Below are positions 73-63,852 of a stretch of DNA of 64,000 nucleotides, in pieces; within the stretch, counting starts at the first letter, position 1; each line of letters starts with the position of its first letter. The stretch is from Sipunculus nudus (Eukaryota; Annelida; Sipuncula; Golfingiida; Sipunculidae), in NCBI GenBank assembly GCA_026874595.1, contig CM049315.1, positions 17,133,664 through 17,197,663 of the forward strand, written 5' to 3'. The translations under genes and the position numbers were made by a program. The notes below the pieces were generated by a model, which made no database searches, was not told where the DNA came from, and saw nothing but the letters and a program-made list of their open reading frames with translations.

Positions 73-3000
73 TATCTGCTGGTAAAATTTTTGAAGAACG
101 TCGATACCAAGAGTCACCCCTGTTACTGGCAGCACAGCAGTTTCTTGCAGTGCTATTTGTTGAGGAAGCCAGGCTGCCAGTATCTGAGCAGGAATCCTGT
201 AAAAGGCTGTCACAGATCCTGGATACCCCTACAAAACAAGGTAAGACACGGTCTTTCTTCTGTCTGTGAGACACAGAGAAAGAGAAAGACAATAAGCGAG
301 AGAGAGAGAGAGAGCGGTGGCAAGGGCAATTACACAGGGGGCAGAAATAATAGTAAAATTATTGATTTAATACATGATTTAAAACATTTTCTGCAATTAA
401 CCAGACATACATATGTATACTCTTAACTGCATAGTTGTAATCTTAGAACAAGTTACAGTAATTTCTAGTGATCTTGGTTAATTTTGAGGAATTGTATTAT
501 CTTATTCTTAGGATCATCAGAAAATGGGGATGTGTTCTCAAACTGCACAGGTGCCCACCTTTGTCAGTCGTTAATCAAAGTGTACGACGCAGTCAGCATG
601 AAACCTTTTGAACAGGCTGCTGTATTTAAGTTAGCTGCTGTTAATTCTCTTAAGGGATTAATGGCAGTCAGTGCATCAGCTAAAATGGCAGCATTGGAAG
701 GTGAGAATGTTCTTCTTTTACTTCTGTTGTATGAATTATTCTTTTACAATGAATATGATAAATGTAATAGTTACAGAATATAATACCAGTTACCAGAATT
801 AATATACATTTTAAGATATAAAGTCTTCTGTCTGAATATTTTTATAGGTCAAGGCAAAAGGTTAATATGAAAATCAAAGTCAAAATGACCATGAATCAAC
901 ACAATGGTATTTGTAAATTTGTTATGCAAGTCTTAGATTGAGAGTGTAGTATGTTGTTTTACCCATGAGTAGTCCACCTGTTAATAGTGTAATTTTCTAT
1001 GTTTCAGCTGGTCTTGTAGAGAGTATAACAAACAACATCCGTCACCTTCACGTACAGCTGAGTCTAGATGCCTTGGAACTTAACAGGGCTGGAGGAAACA
1101 AGAAAAAGGTACATGTTCACCTGCACAGAAACAGATAATATGCAAACATTTCATAGACTTAAAACTAATTATATATTATCTATTTGGAACAGTCTCCTGG
1201 CCTTAGAAGCCCAAGCACTGTTTGATTAAAATGTCCTTTCACCAGCAGACCTGAATCAATATACATCTTTTATATTATTGACAGTGGTGGCACTTGACTT
1301 TTGTCATAGAACTCCTCTGTGGCCACACATTGGTAATTTCCCATATTTTCACCTTAATTCTGAGAAATTTGACATTATTTTTCCAAAAGGTGATTAGCAG
1401 CACCATCTGCCAGCAACTACATGAACTCAACTTTATTGCTCCGCAATGGTGCCAGGTGCTGTTATTTAAAGGAACAATACAGACTTTCTTGTCATAGATA
1501 GCATGTGGAGATTGATTCCGTATTACTCTCTCATGACATCTTCCTCAGAGCCAGGTGTCAAGCTGGGTTGAGCAGAGACCTTGCTTCAGAGGGACTCCTG
1601 GCCTGCTGTGTCATGAATTTTGAACAAGCGTGCATGTGATTGTCAAAAATCATAGAGCTGCCAATCAGATCCATTCCTACAATAGTAAATGGTGCACAAA
1701 AATCTAAACTGTTCACAAGTCTTATCAACAAGAACACATGCACTGGAAACTCTCCAGGTTTACAAGCCTTAATATCATTGGTCAGATTTTCTATAACAAC
1801 TCCGATCACCAGAAAGTTAATCCCTGATACCTAGAAGGGTCGCATGCAAGCCACCAGATTGGTTCAATTGATTTATTGATAATCCATGAAATAGTGTATT
1901 TGGGGCAAACTACTGTATTTCTTCTATTTTAAACCGCACATCTATTTAAAACCAGACCTAGACTTCGCCAAAATCGATTATGAAATCCCTCTAGACAACT
2001 AATACAAAGAGCCCCCATTTCGTACAAAAGGTAAAGGAATATTTCAAGGAATATTTATGCTCTGATTTCGTGCTTGAGATGGTGGATTCTTGAGAGTTTG
2101 AATGTTCATTACAGCCCTAGTGATTCTTATATGTTAGGAGAACCCTCTGCTGGTTGAGTTGACACATACACTGGAGCTGCTGAGGAACTTCATGCATCAG
2201 AACCAGGAGGTGAAGCAGGCGGCCTGTGAATGTAATGTGGCGGGGCTACTGCATGGGCTGTGGGCCTGGTGCCAGCTTGAACAGAGTCTCATGTCCACAG
2301 TGCTGGCCACGCTGGCTGTGTATGTAGCAGGCTGTCCACAAGGTAAGATGGTGCTGGCCGCGCTGGCTGTGTAGGTAGGAGGCTGTCCACAAGGTAAGAC
2401 GGTGCTAGCCACACTGGCTGTGTAGGTAGGAGGCTGTCCACAAGGTAAGACAGTGCTAGCCACACTGGCTGTGTAGGTAGGAGGCTGTTCACAAGGTAAG
2501 ACGGTGCTAGCATCGCTGGCTGTGTAGGTAGGAGGCTGTCCACAAGGTAAGTCGGTGCTAGCCACACTGGCTGTGTAGGTAGGAGGCTGTCCACAAGATA
2601 AGATGGTGCTGGCCACGCTGGCTGTGTAGGTAGGAGGCTGTCCACAAGGTAAGATGGTGCTGGCCACGCTGACTGTGTAGGTAGGAGGCTGTTCACAAGG
2701 TAAGATGGTGCTGGCCATGCTGGCTGTGTAGGTAGGAGGCTGTCCACAAGGTAAGATGGTGCTGGCCACGCTGGCTGTGTAGGTAGGAGGCTGTTCACAA
2801 GGTAAGATGGTGCTGGCCACGCTGGCTGTGTAGGTAGGAGGCTGTTCACAAGGTAAGATTGTGCTGGCCACGCTGGCTGTGTAGGTAGGAGGCTGTCCAC
2901 AAGGTAAGATGGTGCTAGCCACACTGGCTGTGTAGGTAGGAGGCTGTTCACAAGGTAAGACGGTGCTAGCCACGCTGGCTGTATAGGTAGGAGGCTGTCC

Positions 3001-6000
3001 ACAAGGTAAGACGGTGCTAGCCACCCTGGCTGTGTAGGTAGGAGGCTGTCCACAAGATAAGATGGTGCTGGCCACGCTGGCTGTGTAGGTAGGAGGCTGT
3101 TCACAAGGTAAGATGGTGCTGGCCACGCTGGCTGTGTAGGTAGGAGGCTGTCCACAAGGTAAGATGGTGCTGGCCACGCTGGCTGTGTAGGTAGGAGGCT
3201 GTCCACAAGGTTAGATGGTGCTGGCCACGCTGGCTGTGTAGGTAGGAGGCTGTTCACAAGGTAAGATGGTGCTGGCCATGCTGGCTGTGTAGGTAGGAGG
3301 CTGTCCACAAGGTTAGATGGTGCTGGCCACGCTGGCTGTGTAGGTAGGAGGCTGTTCACAAGGTAAGATGGTGCTGGCCACGCTGGCTGTGTAGGTAGGA
3401 GGCTGTCCACAAGGTTAGATGGTGCTGGCCACGCTGGCTGTGTAGGTAGGAGGCTGTCCACAAGGTAAGATGGTGCTGGCCACGCTGGCTGTGTAGGTAG
3501 GAGGCTGTCCACAAGGTTAGATGGTGCTGGCCACGCTGGCTGTGTAGGTAGGAGGCTGTTCACAAGGTAAGATGGTGCTGGCCATGCTGGCTGTGTAGGA
3601 GGAGGCTGTCCACAAGGTAAGATGGTGCTGGCCACGCTGGCTGTGTAGGTAGGAGGCTGTTCACAAGGTAAGATGGTGCTGGCCACGCTGGCTGTGTAGG
3701 TAGGAGGCTGTTCACAAGGTAAGATGGTGCTGGCCACGCTGGCTGTGTAGGTAGGAGGCTGTTCACAAAGTAAAATGAATATGTGCTTGGAGGTTGTTCC
3801 TTGTTCCATTGCAGTTTTTGAAATTATCAGACAGATTTAAAAAATGAAACTTATCGTAAAATCTGCTTGGAATTTCCAGAGTATGCTTCATATACAGTAA
3901 AGCCTTGTTGTGTTGAAGTGGAAGAACTGATAAAAAATTAAGATACAACAGAGGTTCACATTAGTGGATAATACTTAGTATTCATTAAACTAAACTTTGC
4001 AGATCATATAGCTTTATATTGACACCAGTGGGGTTTCCAATATCAACAAGTTTTGACAGGTGTTTAGCTCAGCTGACTTTCAGGCATGCTGAGCTATAGC
4101 AGTTGGTCTTCGTCCTTTGTTTTTCTGCCCCGCAATCATGCCATTTGTTAGCAGGGTTAAAACCTAACTATTAGACACAAAAATTTCCTGCTTAACATCT
4201 ACCGTAAACAGGTACTGGTAAAATCTCTATGCAAACCTGACATCTTTGACAAGTGCAAATCATTATTGGACTCATTTATATTTCTTTACAGATATTTTAC
4301 TTTATTATTATCATTATTTTTATTATATTATTTTATTACTATTATATTATTTATAGTGATATTATATATTATCATTATAGCATGTAGCTCCTTAGCCTTC
4401 ACATCAGCCATGGCTGGACAGGAGAAGGCCCCAGTGAAAGGTCCCCACAGCCCCAACTCCCTGGTCCACGCCCTGATTAAACTGGTGCAGAAGAGCCAAG
4501 CATGCGGTAATAGTCGACTCGTAAAGAGCATCTTTACTATCCTGGCTACACTGACATTCTCTCAGGAATGTAGAGGTATTCTTTGGAAGGTAGGTCTGTG
4601 TATGCAGTTCCCTCTCAATTAATACCCAGATTCTCAAAGTAATAGGGGTGATATTAGAAAGTGTTGTATAATGGTGTTTAATTAGTGACCTGGGTGCGCA
4701 CTAGATGTCGGAAGCAGTGATGCAGTCGAGTCCTCACATTTTCAAGTCTGTGTACAAGTCCAAGTCCAGCCTCCATGAGTCCCAGTCCAATTCAGAGTCT
4801 TTGAGGTTCAGGTCCAAGTCCCCCCTTCAAGTCTGAGTCATCCAGAGTTCAAGTCCTAGTCCAATAAAAAACTTTTTTTATAAAAAGAAAAATTAAAGTG
4901 GAACTTAGAGATTACATTGAGAAGTACTTTTATGTCAGTTTACACATGCCCTTTATGTTAAGGTTTAATTGCATTAAGCTCCCGATGCAGACCTACAGCT
5001 TGTTATATGCCGTCTTTTTTGTAATACTCTGTAAGTAATTACCACATGTATATTAATGTCTTTATGGTATGCAACAGAGGTTTCCTTCTGCTGGACTTGA
5101 GATTGACTTGGCCTGATTTCTCGAGTCCTTACCTCTAAGTCTGAGTACAAGTCCAGGACACTCAAGTCCAAGTCCGAGTCATAAAAAATGGACTAGAGTC
5201 CATGTCCGGACTCAAGTCCTCCATCACTGGTCAATCACTGGACTGAAGATGGCAAGTTATGTGAATAGCAAGGCCTGTCTTACTTGGAGGAACCAGTGAG
5301 GTACCAGTGTGTTTAAAGCGTGGTCACCTGGCTCAGAATAAATCAATCAAGAATATAAATCAATTGATCCATAACACCAATACTGCTGTGACCAATCATG
5401 TGTTTTTGTTTGTTATCATGACTTCATTTTAGGCTTTTTTGCATAATTTAATCCAGGGATTTGGCATACATAATGCAGTGGTGAGGTCACAGACAATTAT
5501 TATGAGACAAATTTTTATTCTGGTGTTAATCAGGGGGGATATTTGAATGTTATGTGTCAAAGCCACCATTATGTAAAGAAGTGTAATGTGAACCAAAAAT
5601 CATTCTTAACAGCCCAGCCAATGATGCTCAGCCAGTTTGTAAAGTGGCAAAATACTGGTCTCATTGTCTAAGTTCCTCAGATTAACCCTGAAAACTTTCA
5701 CTGGCACCATACTTCAGGCCTGGGAAGTGGTATTGTTGTTCCACCCTGTCACAGAGGTGACCCTTGGGATGGCCCATCAAACAGATCATCCTCAGAGAGG
5801 GGATGATTATGACTGTGAACTCAAAACCATCTGATTATTCTTATCAGTAAAACTTTCTGTATTAGCAAATATTTGTGCATGTGGGTTTGATGCCAGAGGT
5901 CAACCATGCTGGTTGTTCCATCTACTTAAACATGCTGTCTGTTATCATTCCTATATGGCAGAAGCTTACTATCATCTTAACTTTGCTATTATAAGACATG

Positions 6001-16925: not shown

Positions 16926-24923
<7,998 letters not shown>

Positions 24924-28204: not shown

Positions 28205-28360
28205 GAAAATAAATAAAAAAATTTCCATCTTGCGTGGTGCAGCAATATTGCAATTACAATCATTTCCTTTGTCGTTGCAACAAACTAACATTCAAGCTGT
28301 TTTCAGTTACATTCTCTCATTATCTCATATCTCTCATTTCCTTTTTTTTCAGCTTATGAA

Positions 28361-29641
28361 ATGGCAAAAAATGTTCCAAGGATAAAGGCAGTTCGTGCCT
28401 ACATCACTGAATCAAGCGGTGGTGATCAGGGAGCCGACTGTCATGACGTCATTGATAAACACTGGATTAACGGTTACCCCACCCCGGTGGCCAATCCCAT
28501 GTCCAGTTACCCCCAGTACGCTAAGACCAGGAAATCATGGGGTATCAACGCTTTGGGCTCTCTAGTGGTGGAGGTAGAAGCCGAGGATGGCACCACTGGG
28601 GTCGGTGTAACAATTGGTGGAGAACCAGCATGTTACATTGTGGAGAAGCATCTGAGCCGTTTCGTGGAAGGTCAAGACCCACGTGACGTTGAGCTGATGT
28701 GGGATCAGATGTTTAGATCCACCTTGAACTACGGGCGGAAAGGTCTTCCGTTACAGGCGATCAGTGCGGTAGACATTGCATTGTGGGATTTATTGGGAAA
28801 ATTAAGGAATGAGCCCGTCTATGCCTTATTAGGAGGGAAAACGAAACAGCGACTACCGGTGTATTCTACTACAGCACGGCCAGATTTGGCGAAAGATTTT
28901 GGATTTGTTGCAGCGAAGATTCCCTGTCCGTATGGACCCGCAGACGGAGATGACGGATTGCGAAAGAATGTAGAATTCTTTCGATCATGGCGGGAAAAAG
29001 TAGGACCCGACTTCCCACTCATGTTAGACTGCTACATGGCTCACACGGTCTCCTACTCGATCAAACTGGCACAATCCCTGGAACCTCACGGTCTCAAGTG
29101 GATGGAAGAATTTTTACCGCCTGATGATTATGACGGATATAACCGTGTCAGGAACTCGCTGAACAGCAGCAAAGTCATGTTGACCACGGGCGAGCACGAG
29201 TACACTCGTTACGGCTTCCGTCAGCTGATAGAAAGCCGCTGTGTTGATATCTTACAGCCGGATATCACGTGGTTGGGCGGTATTACGGAGGCCCGGAGGG
29301 TGGTTGCCATGGCATCTGCGTACGATATTCTCGTGATACCACACGGCTCCAGCGTTTATTCATACCACCTTCAGTACGCATTCCGCAACTGCCCTCTGGC
29401 GGAGTATATTAACCTCAGCACCAACGCAGACGAGATAGTTCCGTACTTTGGCGGGATTTTCCCAGACGAACCCCTGCCCAAGGATGGGTTTATCGATTTA
29501 CCTGATAGGCCCGGATTTGGGGTTACTCTTTGCAAGGATAATCTTAGGAGACCTTACAACAGATCAGTGGAGGAATCCGCAGCACAGTTTGCCCGAAATG
29601 CTCAACAAGAAATGCCAAAAGTGGCATCAATGCCGTTCTAA
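28361..29641 (+). CDS. rhmD: L-rhamnonate dehydratase-like enzyme (enolase superfamily), single coding exon
   Basis: Full-length 426-residue protein of the mandelate racemase/RhmD group, whose bacterial members convert L-rhamnonate to 2-keto-3-deoxy-L-rhamnonate. The capping N-domain (about 8-150) holds His34 (KHWI) and the substrate-binding loop PMSSY. The barrel holds the metal ligands Asp223 (LMLDCY), Glu249 (WMEE) and Glu278 (TTGEHE), His279, the Asp301-His328 pair (QPDITW and IPHGSSVYS) and Glu348. These correspond one-for-one to the family's known active-site residues, so activity is expected. There is no intron in 1281 bp, although neighbouring genes have exons of 60-290 bp. A TTTTTTTTCAG acceptor ends 8 bp before the ATG, so a noncoding 5' exon is likely and the gene appears adapted to the host. 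A tail of about 25 residues follows the usual bacterial end. No signal peptide, so probably cytosolic. An AATAAA lies at 29873-29878. Bacterial contamination is unlikely because the flanks are host-type repeats. Confidence 0.9.
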   Translation: MAKNVPRIKAVRAYITESSGGDQGADCHDVIDKHWINGYPTPVANPMSSYPQYAKTRKSWGINALGSLVVEVEAEDGTTGVGVTIGGEPACYIVEKHLSRFVEGQDPRDVELMWDQMFRSTLNYGRKGLPLQAISAVDIALWDLLGKLRNEPVYALLGGKTKQRLPVYSTTARPDLAKDFGFVAAKIPCPYGPADGDDGLRKNVEFFRSWREKVGPDFPLMLDCYMAHTVSYSIKLAQSLEPHGLKWMEEFLPPDDYDGYNRVRNSLNSSKVMLTTGEHEYTRYGFRQLIESRCVDILQPDITWLGGITEARRVVAMASAYDILVIPHGSSVYSYHLQYAFRNCPLAEYINLSTNADEIVPYFGGIFPDEPLPKDGFIDLPDRPGFGVTLCKDNLRRPYNRSVEESAAQFARNAQQEMPKVASMPF

Positions 29642-31256
29642 ATAATAAGAAAGTAAAGAATGAAAACTTCATTACTTTATTTTATATCAAATCAGGGTTC
29701 TTACGGCTTAAAAATCATCAATGCTTTTCCTGCGCTTCCTTTCCACAAATCAGTATATCGAAGGCGCGCTTACCAGTTTCGATTTTCTACATTTCCTTCC
29801 GATGTTATGGCAAATCATAGCCTGAGGAACACTGACACGGATCCCTCCACGAATCATCACGAATGGGCCGCAAATAAACTTCACTGATTATCCGTCACTG
29901 ATGATTTAGTGATAGGTACGTTTACCCGTGAAACACTTTGAAACGTTCGGCGTATGAAATCCTACCAAAGCCCTGTCTACGTCCTCACAGACCGTGGGAA
30001 AACGTCACATATAGCACGTTAGAATTAAATAAAAAAAAAAAAATTAAATGATAATCACACGTCACACATTACCAGAACAATAGGGGGAGTAGTACGTGGA
30101 TAGTGTACAAGGGCACCTGTATTACTGGAATATTCCTGTGCAATGTTCAGAATTAGTTACAAAACCTACCACCAGATGGGGCAACAAACAAGTAGCTGGA
30201 ACTTTGACGTCTCAAATTTTTTCACCACTCGTTACTTCTGCTTTTGAAATAAACCACAAATGAATCCATAAGACAACACTTTGGTTTGCCAGACGGACGA
30301 ATGAATATATTATATTGAATAATATATCCTTTTGGAAAACAAGATGAAACGTATCACCATGGCACGTTAGCATAACCTAAGTGTTAGGCCTATATTGGTA
30401 TTTAAACTAACGTGTATAGTTCGTATAACAAAACCGATAAGTCACATAACATACTCTGTTCTTATAAATGATGTTTGTTCGTTCTCTAGCAAATAGTTAT
30501 AACCTTTATTATGAAAGACGTGAACAGTAGGTCTACACGTTGTAAACAGGAGAGCTTAGATTTATGTGCACTGACAAAGATTAAGAGGTCATAGTGTATA
30601 TATCAAAGCTGAAGAGATTTTTTTAGACGTCAGATGTAAAAGCATTGTGCGACTGCATGAACTAGAAAGCATAAATCTTCGTTGGTCGAGACATACGGGG
30701 CGACCTTTCAGACGATACACCTTGTTTTACTGTGATGAACCTGCCATGCGAAAAAAGCATGGAGCCTCTCCGACTAGCACTTAGTTGATCTGTTTACGCT
30801 TGCTGGTTTTGGAATGTCAACCTACCATTACTTATACCTATCTTATGGTGTGCGTGTGTAAGAACGTGGGACACTGATTTAGCGCACAACGTAATTATTA
30901 AATACTTTTTTTTATTATTTGTCAAACCTTTATTATCATCTTAATTTGTTAATAAGATGCCTAGACACGTAGGTTTAACAAGAACTTATTACAACTAATA
31001 AAAAAAGCTATTTACATAGACAGAGTGAAATTGCAGAGTTGTACCTTGGAGCGCATACATTTAATGATTCATAGTTCATAGTTCTATCAACCCAGCAGGT
31101 CTGGGTTTTAATGCACATTCATATGCATGTGATGATTGGCCACTGATTTTTTTCTTACTTTGATTTATAATTAACTTTCTCTACATCCACACCAATTTAA
31201 GTTATATCTCATCCATCTCCATTCAGCTGGTGACCCTTTACGTATGCCCAATCATA

Positions 31257-63585: not shown

Positions 63586-63852
63586 AAATTTATCAATGGG
63601 CTCGCCCCTTCTTACCTTATTAAGAACTTTACTTTTACCCGTGATGTTCATCAGTATAACACCCGTTCATCAGTAAATTCCCATGTTAATCCTCTCAAAA
63701 CCACGCACAGAAATCCTAAAAACTCATCTTTTTATGCAGGAAGTGTTCTATGGAATGCCCTTCCGACAAAACTAAAAAATGCCAACAATCTAAAGAGCTT
63801 TAAAATGCTAGCGTGCACATATTTCCTTGCATATAATACCAAGATAGAATAA
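63586..63852 (+). pseudogene. C-terminal tail of a second LINE reverse-transcriptase protein
   Basis: An 88-codon open frame with no start codon, running GLAPSYLIKNFTFTRDVHQY, NTRSS, then SSFYAGSVLWNALPTKLKN, NANNLKSFK and a TAA stop. The GLAP...VHxYNTR...LWNxLP...SFK order is characteristic of the end of CR1/Jockey-type LINE ORF2 proteins. An upstream stop at 63583 marks the 5' break. It is a different lineage from the fragment at 20958-21485. Confidence 0.7.

Follow-up and report, generated by a model that had tools for sequence, protein, structure and literature searches.

A complete gene of the L-rhamnonate dehydratase (RhmD) family stands as an ordinary-looking gene in a chromosome of the animal Sipunculus nudus; the family is well known, its presence in such a host unexpected. 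The reading that we favour, with moderate confidence, is that of a host gene for a single-copy RhmD-family dehydratase that was laterally acquired as an intronless copy, with enzymes already present in the animal using its product. The gene lies at 17.162 Mb of contig C10 (79,641,139 bases) in an assembly of 1,426,538,692 bases and 153 contigs, and the window referred to below is the whole 64-kb stretch that was analysed (C10:17133664-17197663).

The open reading frame, its family and its active site

The gene and the signals at its two ends are the following:

28361..29641, + strand: L-rhamnonate dehydratase (RhmD) coding sequence in one exon, 426 aa (open reading frame scan, family models, active-site alignment)
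28333..28352, + strand: predicted splice acceptor (polypyrimidine tract and CAG) at the end of a 5' intron, implying an upstream noncoding exon (acceptor matrix)
28356..28385, + strand: possible out-of-frame upstream open reading frame of 9 codons, if the exon begins at 28353 (sequence reading and overlapping frame)
29873..29878, + strand: candidate poly(A) signal, the first AATAAA downstream (motif; further AATAAA at 30028 and 30248)

The coding sequence runs from ATG to TAA through 426 codons without interruption, and its open frame extends upstream to 28289 (450 codons). At the composition of the window (36.5% GC) about 6.9% of random codons are stops and the chance of 426 stop-free codons is about 6e-14; the reality of the gene is settled by its homology to family models. 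In Pfam it matched MR_MLE_C (1.4e-48) and MR_MLE_N (1.6e-12), while the NCBIfam equivalog model for L-rhamnonate dehydratase (NF011968) scored 521 bits, above its cut-off of 393 (1.8e-156), with an alignment covering profile positions 3-394 of 395. The runner-up, galactonate dehydratase, reached 148.5 bits against its cut-off of 311. The best-scoring solved relatives were 2oz3 (465 bits), 3fxg (450) and 2i5q (392), the first of which we take to be from Azotobacter vinelandii and the last from E. coli. Since the N terminus begins in register with the bacterial enzymes, translation likely starts from the ATG at 28361.

In an alignment with 2i5q and other rows, all nine mapped active-site residues were present (H34, R57, D223, E249, E278, H279, D301, H328 and E348), and none of the nine varied between the S. 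nudus protein and four RhmD loci. Three rows at a greater distance differed: H34 was Asp or a gap in L012, L013 and L017, and R57 was retained in L012 but absent from L013 and L017. Presumably D223, E249 and E278 are metal ligands, D301 and H328 form the His-Asp dyad, and H34 and R57 lie in N-terminal loops; the roles as metal ligands, dyad and substrate loops reportedly go back to RhmD work by Rakus and colleagues. Substitutions were seen adjoining conserved motifs, e.g., DCYMAH as against DCWMS, DCWMA or DCYMS in four aligned RhmD loci. Judged by its sequence, 28361-29641 is an intact RhmD-family gene with a complete catalytic set, and the claim of the original prediction to this effect was borne out. 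The protein would be a Mg-dependent acid-sugar dehydratase, probably cytosolic, which by homology would abstract the alpha proton from L-rhamnonate and remove the 3-hydroxyl to give 2-keto-3-deoxy-L-rhamnonate (KDR).

Bacterial RhmDs (2oz3, 2i5q and the main Pseudomonadota clade) belong to the same family model, align over the full length with 46.5-53.9% identity and have identical active-site residues. In contrast, the S. nudus gene falls outside their 30-row clade and sits in an animal chromosome with no recognised pathway neighbour. The reference list of PMC3197473 names 3FXG as the rhamnonate dehydratase of Gibberella zeae; this fungal enzyme (LRA3/LraC) is 51% identical over 382 columns and has, for example, GEHEY and DCYM in common with the S. 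nudus protein, which nevertheless stays outside the fungal-type clade in three trees.

The AG at 28351-28352, with a score of 9.0, was among the three best of 6842 AG sites on both strands of the window (itself included) under a simple acceptor matrix. The acceptor inferred for the intron of a neighbouring homeobox gene scored only 2.2, so the score follows real sites loosely and is suggestive rather than proof for RhmD. A splice at 28352/28353 had been proposed; the good acceptor match holds, and the noncoding 5' exon remains a prediction.

Chromosomal setting and relatives in the genome

Upstream of RhmD, on the same strand, lies a gene whose homeodomain is interrupted by an intron (19628-23889):

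19361..19627, + strand: exon of a paired-like homeobox gene that encodes the first part of the homeodomain, with a GT donor at 19628 (frames, Pfam; 5' end of the exon approximate)
23890..24234, + strand: next exon of the homeobox gene, with the rest of the homeodomain and an AG acceptor at 23888-23889 (3' end taken as the end of the open frame)

Its residues past the third helix resemble, we presume, those of ISX. With this intron-split neighbour and a contig of 79.6 Mb, RhmD does sit among animal genes, as had been claimed. Two further observations concern the window as a whole. A 51-base tandem repeat (2300-3777; 29 copies, 94% matches, local GC 52%) overlaps an open frame resembling a coding exon, and frames 20961-21485 (- strand) and 63586-63849 (+ strand) read by eye as ends of reverse-transcriptase type mobile elements, with no Pfam match over the cut-off.

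The third-position GC of the RhmD frame (0.53) compares with 0.49 in the homeobox exons, a figure that includes three intron bases with the first exon (0.494 in the first exon alone). The CpG observed/expected ratio of the frame (0.89) is higher than in the homeobox exons (0.69) or in the window as a whole (0.675), which speaks against a host-adapted gene. No bacterial-type gene was recognised next to RhmD among the open frames of the window, 19 of which were chosen for Pfam; the last nine of these gave no match at E <= 0.01, and no pathway partner gene was recognised in the 64 kb. Repeats shared between the RhmD flanks and the host amounted to two matches of 39 and 38 bases, too short to use, and no exact match to one stretch upstream of the gene was found among 64 loci.

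These data bear on whether RhmD is stray bacterial sequence that was wrongly joined to the animal chromosome during assembly. The assembly does include at least one bacterial contig (C127, 110,647 bases), in which frames of at least 150 aa fill 92% of the 10 kb examined (C127:80000-89999), against 6.2% of the RhmD window, or 3.9% without its first 4 kb, where the tandem repeat lies. RhmD, however, is found at 17.16 Mb within a 79.6 Mb contig, resembles the host in codon use, has an intron-split neighbour and no recognised bacterial-type one, carries a strong predicted splice acceptor just before its ATG, and is only 54-55% identical to the closest sampled sequence. We therefore rejected contamination as extremely improbable; a join at a contaminant boundary, which had been named as a possible refutation, is very unlikely given the position deep inside the contig and the host-like composition.

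When the RhmD protein was searched against the whole assembly (E <= 0.001), two matches were obtained, itself and a 31%-identical one on C127; no second RhmD was found, and the gene is single-copy in this assembly. The C127 gene fell below the cut-off of every model matched, with galactonate dehydratase the best, and it is a different kind of enzyme. Its surroundings (C127:80000-89999; L072, L017) have the appearance of a sugar-acid operon, with the MR_MLE dehydratase, a galactarate-dehydratase-like gene (below cut-off) and a DMT-type transporter recognised by eye.

An MR_MLE_C family search of the assembly returned ten stretches, namely RhmD, the C127 gene, two on C4 and six on C9. The tested C4 exon matched solved L-fuconate dehydratases best (67 bits), followed by human ENOSF1 (62 bits), and an ENOSF1-like gene is present at C4:24.49 Mb. 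ENOSF1/L-fuconate dehydratase, the animal deoxy-sugar-acid dehydratase, has the enolase superfamily and the type of chemistry in common with the S. nudus RhmD, but the ENOSF1-like gene belongs to a different subfamily, is split into exons and was not matched by the RhmD protein at E <= 0.001. The C9 stretches form a cluster of 33 kb, in which three tested frames matched cis-3-hydroxy-L-proline dehydratase best, as fragments below the whole-protein cut-off. This tandem array of exon-split MR_MLE genes (C9:14849099-14881575; L044, L046, L047, L049-L051; NF043002 best in three frames), an animal array of cis-3-hydroxy-L-proline-dehydratase-like genes, is noteworthy in itself. The RhmD coding region is a single exon; for the ENOSF1-like and hydroxyproline-type MR_MLE genes of this genome, by contrast, the matches are spread over separate exons.

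Placement in the family and the origin of the gene

Three maximum-likelihood trees were computed with 37, 44 and 40 rows, the last without the longest branches. Five loci were kept out of all trees: L021 and L026 duplicate the places of L002 and L001, and L016, L022 and L023 repeat the sequences of the S. nudus RhmD, L009 and L012; L013, L015, L017, L025, L027 and L028 were also left out of the 44- and 40-row trees, and the long-branched L012, L059, L062 and L064 also out of the 40-row tree. The PDB chains 2p0i, 2gsh, 2p3z and 3d46 were omitted, and 14 of the 74 matching plasmid records were taken. The sampling is narrow, covering Pseudomonadota, plasmids (haloarchaea included) and one fungus.

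In all three trees the S. nudus protein fell inside the RhmD clade relative to other MR_MLE dehydratases (28 rows at 99/96, 36 at 100/98, 35 at 100/100), outside the main Pseudomonadota clade (24 rows at 100/99, 30 at 100/100, 30 at 100/99) and outside the fungal-type clade (3 rows at 100/100, 5 at 99/98, 4 at 100/100). Its basal position had a support of 89/71 in the 40-row tree and 94/75 in the 44-row tree, and the tree tool flagged long branches meeting at its row. On the 40-row tree, forcing it together with the fungal-type rows cost 2.6 log units (p-AU 0.362) and with the main Pseudomonadota clade 4.9 log units (p-AU 0.369); neither was rejected. Of a bacterial-type RhmD, the comparison with bacterial and fungal sequences thus upheld membership of the RhmD clade; nesting inside a bacterial clade was not seen in this sampling, which hardly reaches bacteria beyond Pseudomonadota, the gene being outside both sampled clades with alternative placements not rejected.

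The fungal-type clade also includes the Pseudomonadota rows L038 and L039, plus L057 in the 44- and 40-row trees. A minority of Pseudomonadota accordingly carry a fungal-type RhmD, apart from the usual bacterial one (L038 and L039 are 59-61% identical to the fungal chain), for which an exchange between bacteria and fungi is possible.

The highest identity to anything sampled was 54-55%. The closest relatives were bacterial, archaeal and fungal, a result bound to the collections searched because these contain no animals. No close donor was found in genome contigs (one scan, one locus at 53% identity), on plasmids (74 records at 1e-50, every one below 60% identity) or in overlapping Pseudomonadota samples, where matches at E <= 1e-80 occurred in 14 of 398, 12 of 385 and 2 of 369 genomes, some of them (e.g., L060-L063) outside the RhmD clade. 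RhmDs this similar are rare even among the sampled Pseudomonadota, and two viral scans yielded no RhmD relatives. A close bacterial donor was therefore discarded, as was a recent transfer, because the composition is host-like and the best identity is 54-55%. A fungal donor is not supported, nor was the fungal-type grouping rejected (p-AU 0.362).

Horizontal acquisition of a bacterial-type gene had been proposed, and the part that stands is an intact, integrated and host-like gene; since it branches outside the Pseudomonadota and fungal-type clades and is not nested among sampled bacterial RhmDs, we infer rather than observe its bacterial type and its transfer from bacteria. An old lateral acquisition is the likeliest reading. 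The single coding exon, unlike the split MR_MLE genes of the same genome, argues for transfer; the lack of a donor among the sequences searched and the position outside both sampled clades in three trees argue against it. An intronless copy would have entered an ancestor of S. nudus, gained an upstream exon and a promoter, drifted to host composition and come to be expressed as a working host gene. The donor may have been bacterial, from beyond the Pseudomonadota sampled here, or eukaryotic.

A serious rival, albeit one that we regard as unlikely, is that an early eukaryote or opisthokont already had RhmD, which fungi and some animals retained while other lineages lost it, and which reached S. 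nudus vertically. The separate deep branch that the gene forms, without nesting among the bacteria sampled, agrees with such an inheritance, as do the grouping with fungal-type sequences that was not rejected (p-AU 0.362) and the existence of RhmD in fungi (3fxg; the pathway in PMC7532622 and PMC5674754). On the other hand, the coding region has no introns, the non-phosphorylative pathway is reported from bacteria and yeasts in PMC5674754, and the fungal-type clade includes bacteria (L038, L039, L057), so the fungi may themselves be recipients.

Pathway, substrate and biological meaning

In PMC7532622 and PMC5674754, rhamnose catabolism via LRA enzymes is a fungal and bacterial pathway, in which the non-phosphorylated route leads from L-rhamnose through the lactone, L-rhamnonate and KDR to pyruvate and lactaldehyde (LRA1-LRA4); the latter source gives the non-phosphorylative pathway as known from bacteria and yeasts. 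According to both sources, fungi have LRA1-LRA3, often clustered, and A. niger and A. nidulans are without a clear LRA4, whereas the S. nudus window holds no recognised partner gene. In one bacterium, rhmD adjoins genes for a FAH-family hydrolase, an SDR, an amidohydrolase and rhaT.

Other functions of the pathway were sought in the S. nudus genome by family searches that read single exons and can miss genes with short exons. L-rhamnose dehydrogenase and the lactonase are members of large families, for which a search by exon has no diagnostic value. The GH78 rhamnosidase domain (PF17389) had no match at E <= 0.001 in the exon-by-exon search, which was positive in 3 of 14 control genomes. A KDR aldolase had been suggested as a check, and no dedicated one of the HpcH/HpaI type was found in the host contigs: of three HpcH/HpaI stretches in the genome, two, adjacent on C6, look like exons of CLYBL, an ordinary animal gene, and the third, on C113, stands in an uninterrupted 269-codon frame and is likely bacterial. 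FAA_hydrolase matches numbered seven, two on C1 and one each on C128, C66, C72, C74 and C77. A C1 stretch matched FAHD1 best, with 207 bits against 124 for the L-2,4-diketo-3-deoxyrhamnonate hydrolase of known structure; FAHD1 itself is a general acylpyruvase. Four of the matches (C66:90582, C72:2091632, C74:375974, C77:176952; L068-L071) had identical scores and frame lengths on four contigs, one of them at least 2 Mb long, and are possibly one bacterial sequence assembled several times.

These searches yielded no complete rhamnose pathway, and because neither a GH78 domain nor a dedicated HpcH/HpaI aldolase was found, the idea that the animal benefits from dietary rhamnose receives little support. 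In the likeliest picture, the animal's existing enzymes would process the RhmD product alongside the ENOSF1 (L-fuconate dehydratase) route, with KDR used in parallel to it by existing enzymes such as SDR dehydrogenases and FAHD1-like hydrolases. RhmDs accept L-mannonate, L-lyxonate and D-gulonate, and the conserved enzyme might now serve one of these or another acid sugar, rhamnose feeding being irrelevant. The failure to find a GH78 domain or a dedicated HpcH/HpaI aldolase in the host contigs and the substitutions beside conserved motifs (e.g., DCYMAH) would fit such a change; the nine retained residues, H34 and R57 among them, and the lead of NF011968 (521 bits) over the next dehydratase model (148.5) speak for the original substrate, and we consider the change rather improbable.

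No report of an RhmD in an animal came up in searches of an open-access library, a fraction of what is published, and RhmD-like proteins of animals may well have been annotated automatically. As the family is well known, the novelty lies in the host and in the deep branch. A distinct animal-borne RhmD lineage, sister to all sampled bacterial and fungal RhmDs and feeding a second deoxy-sugar-acid route beside ENOSF1, is a tentative and somewhat doubtful extension; if true, the animal would burn or detoxify L-rhamnose from food or microbes by its own enzymes. With an intact, single-copy and host-adapted RhmD, animal metabolism would gain an acid-sugar dehydratase, and the S. nudus gene is a case of either old lateral transfer or differential loss that lends itself directly to assay.
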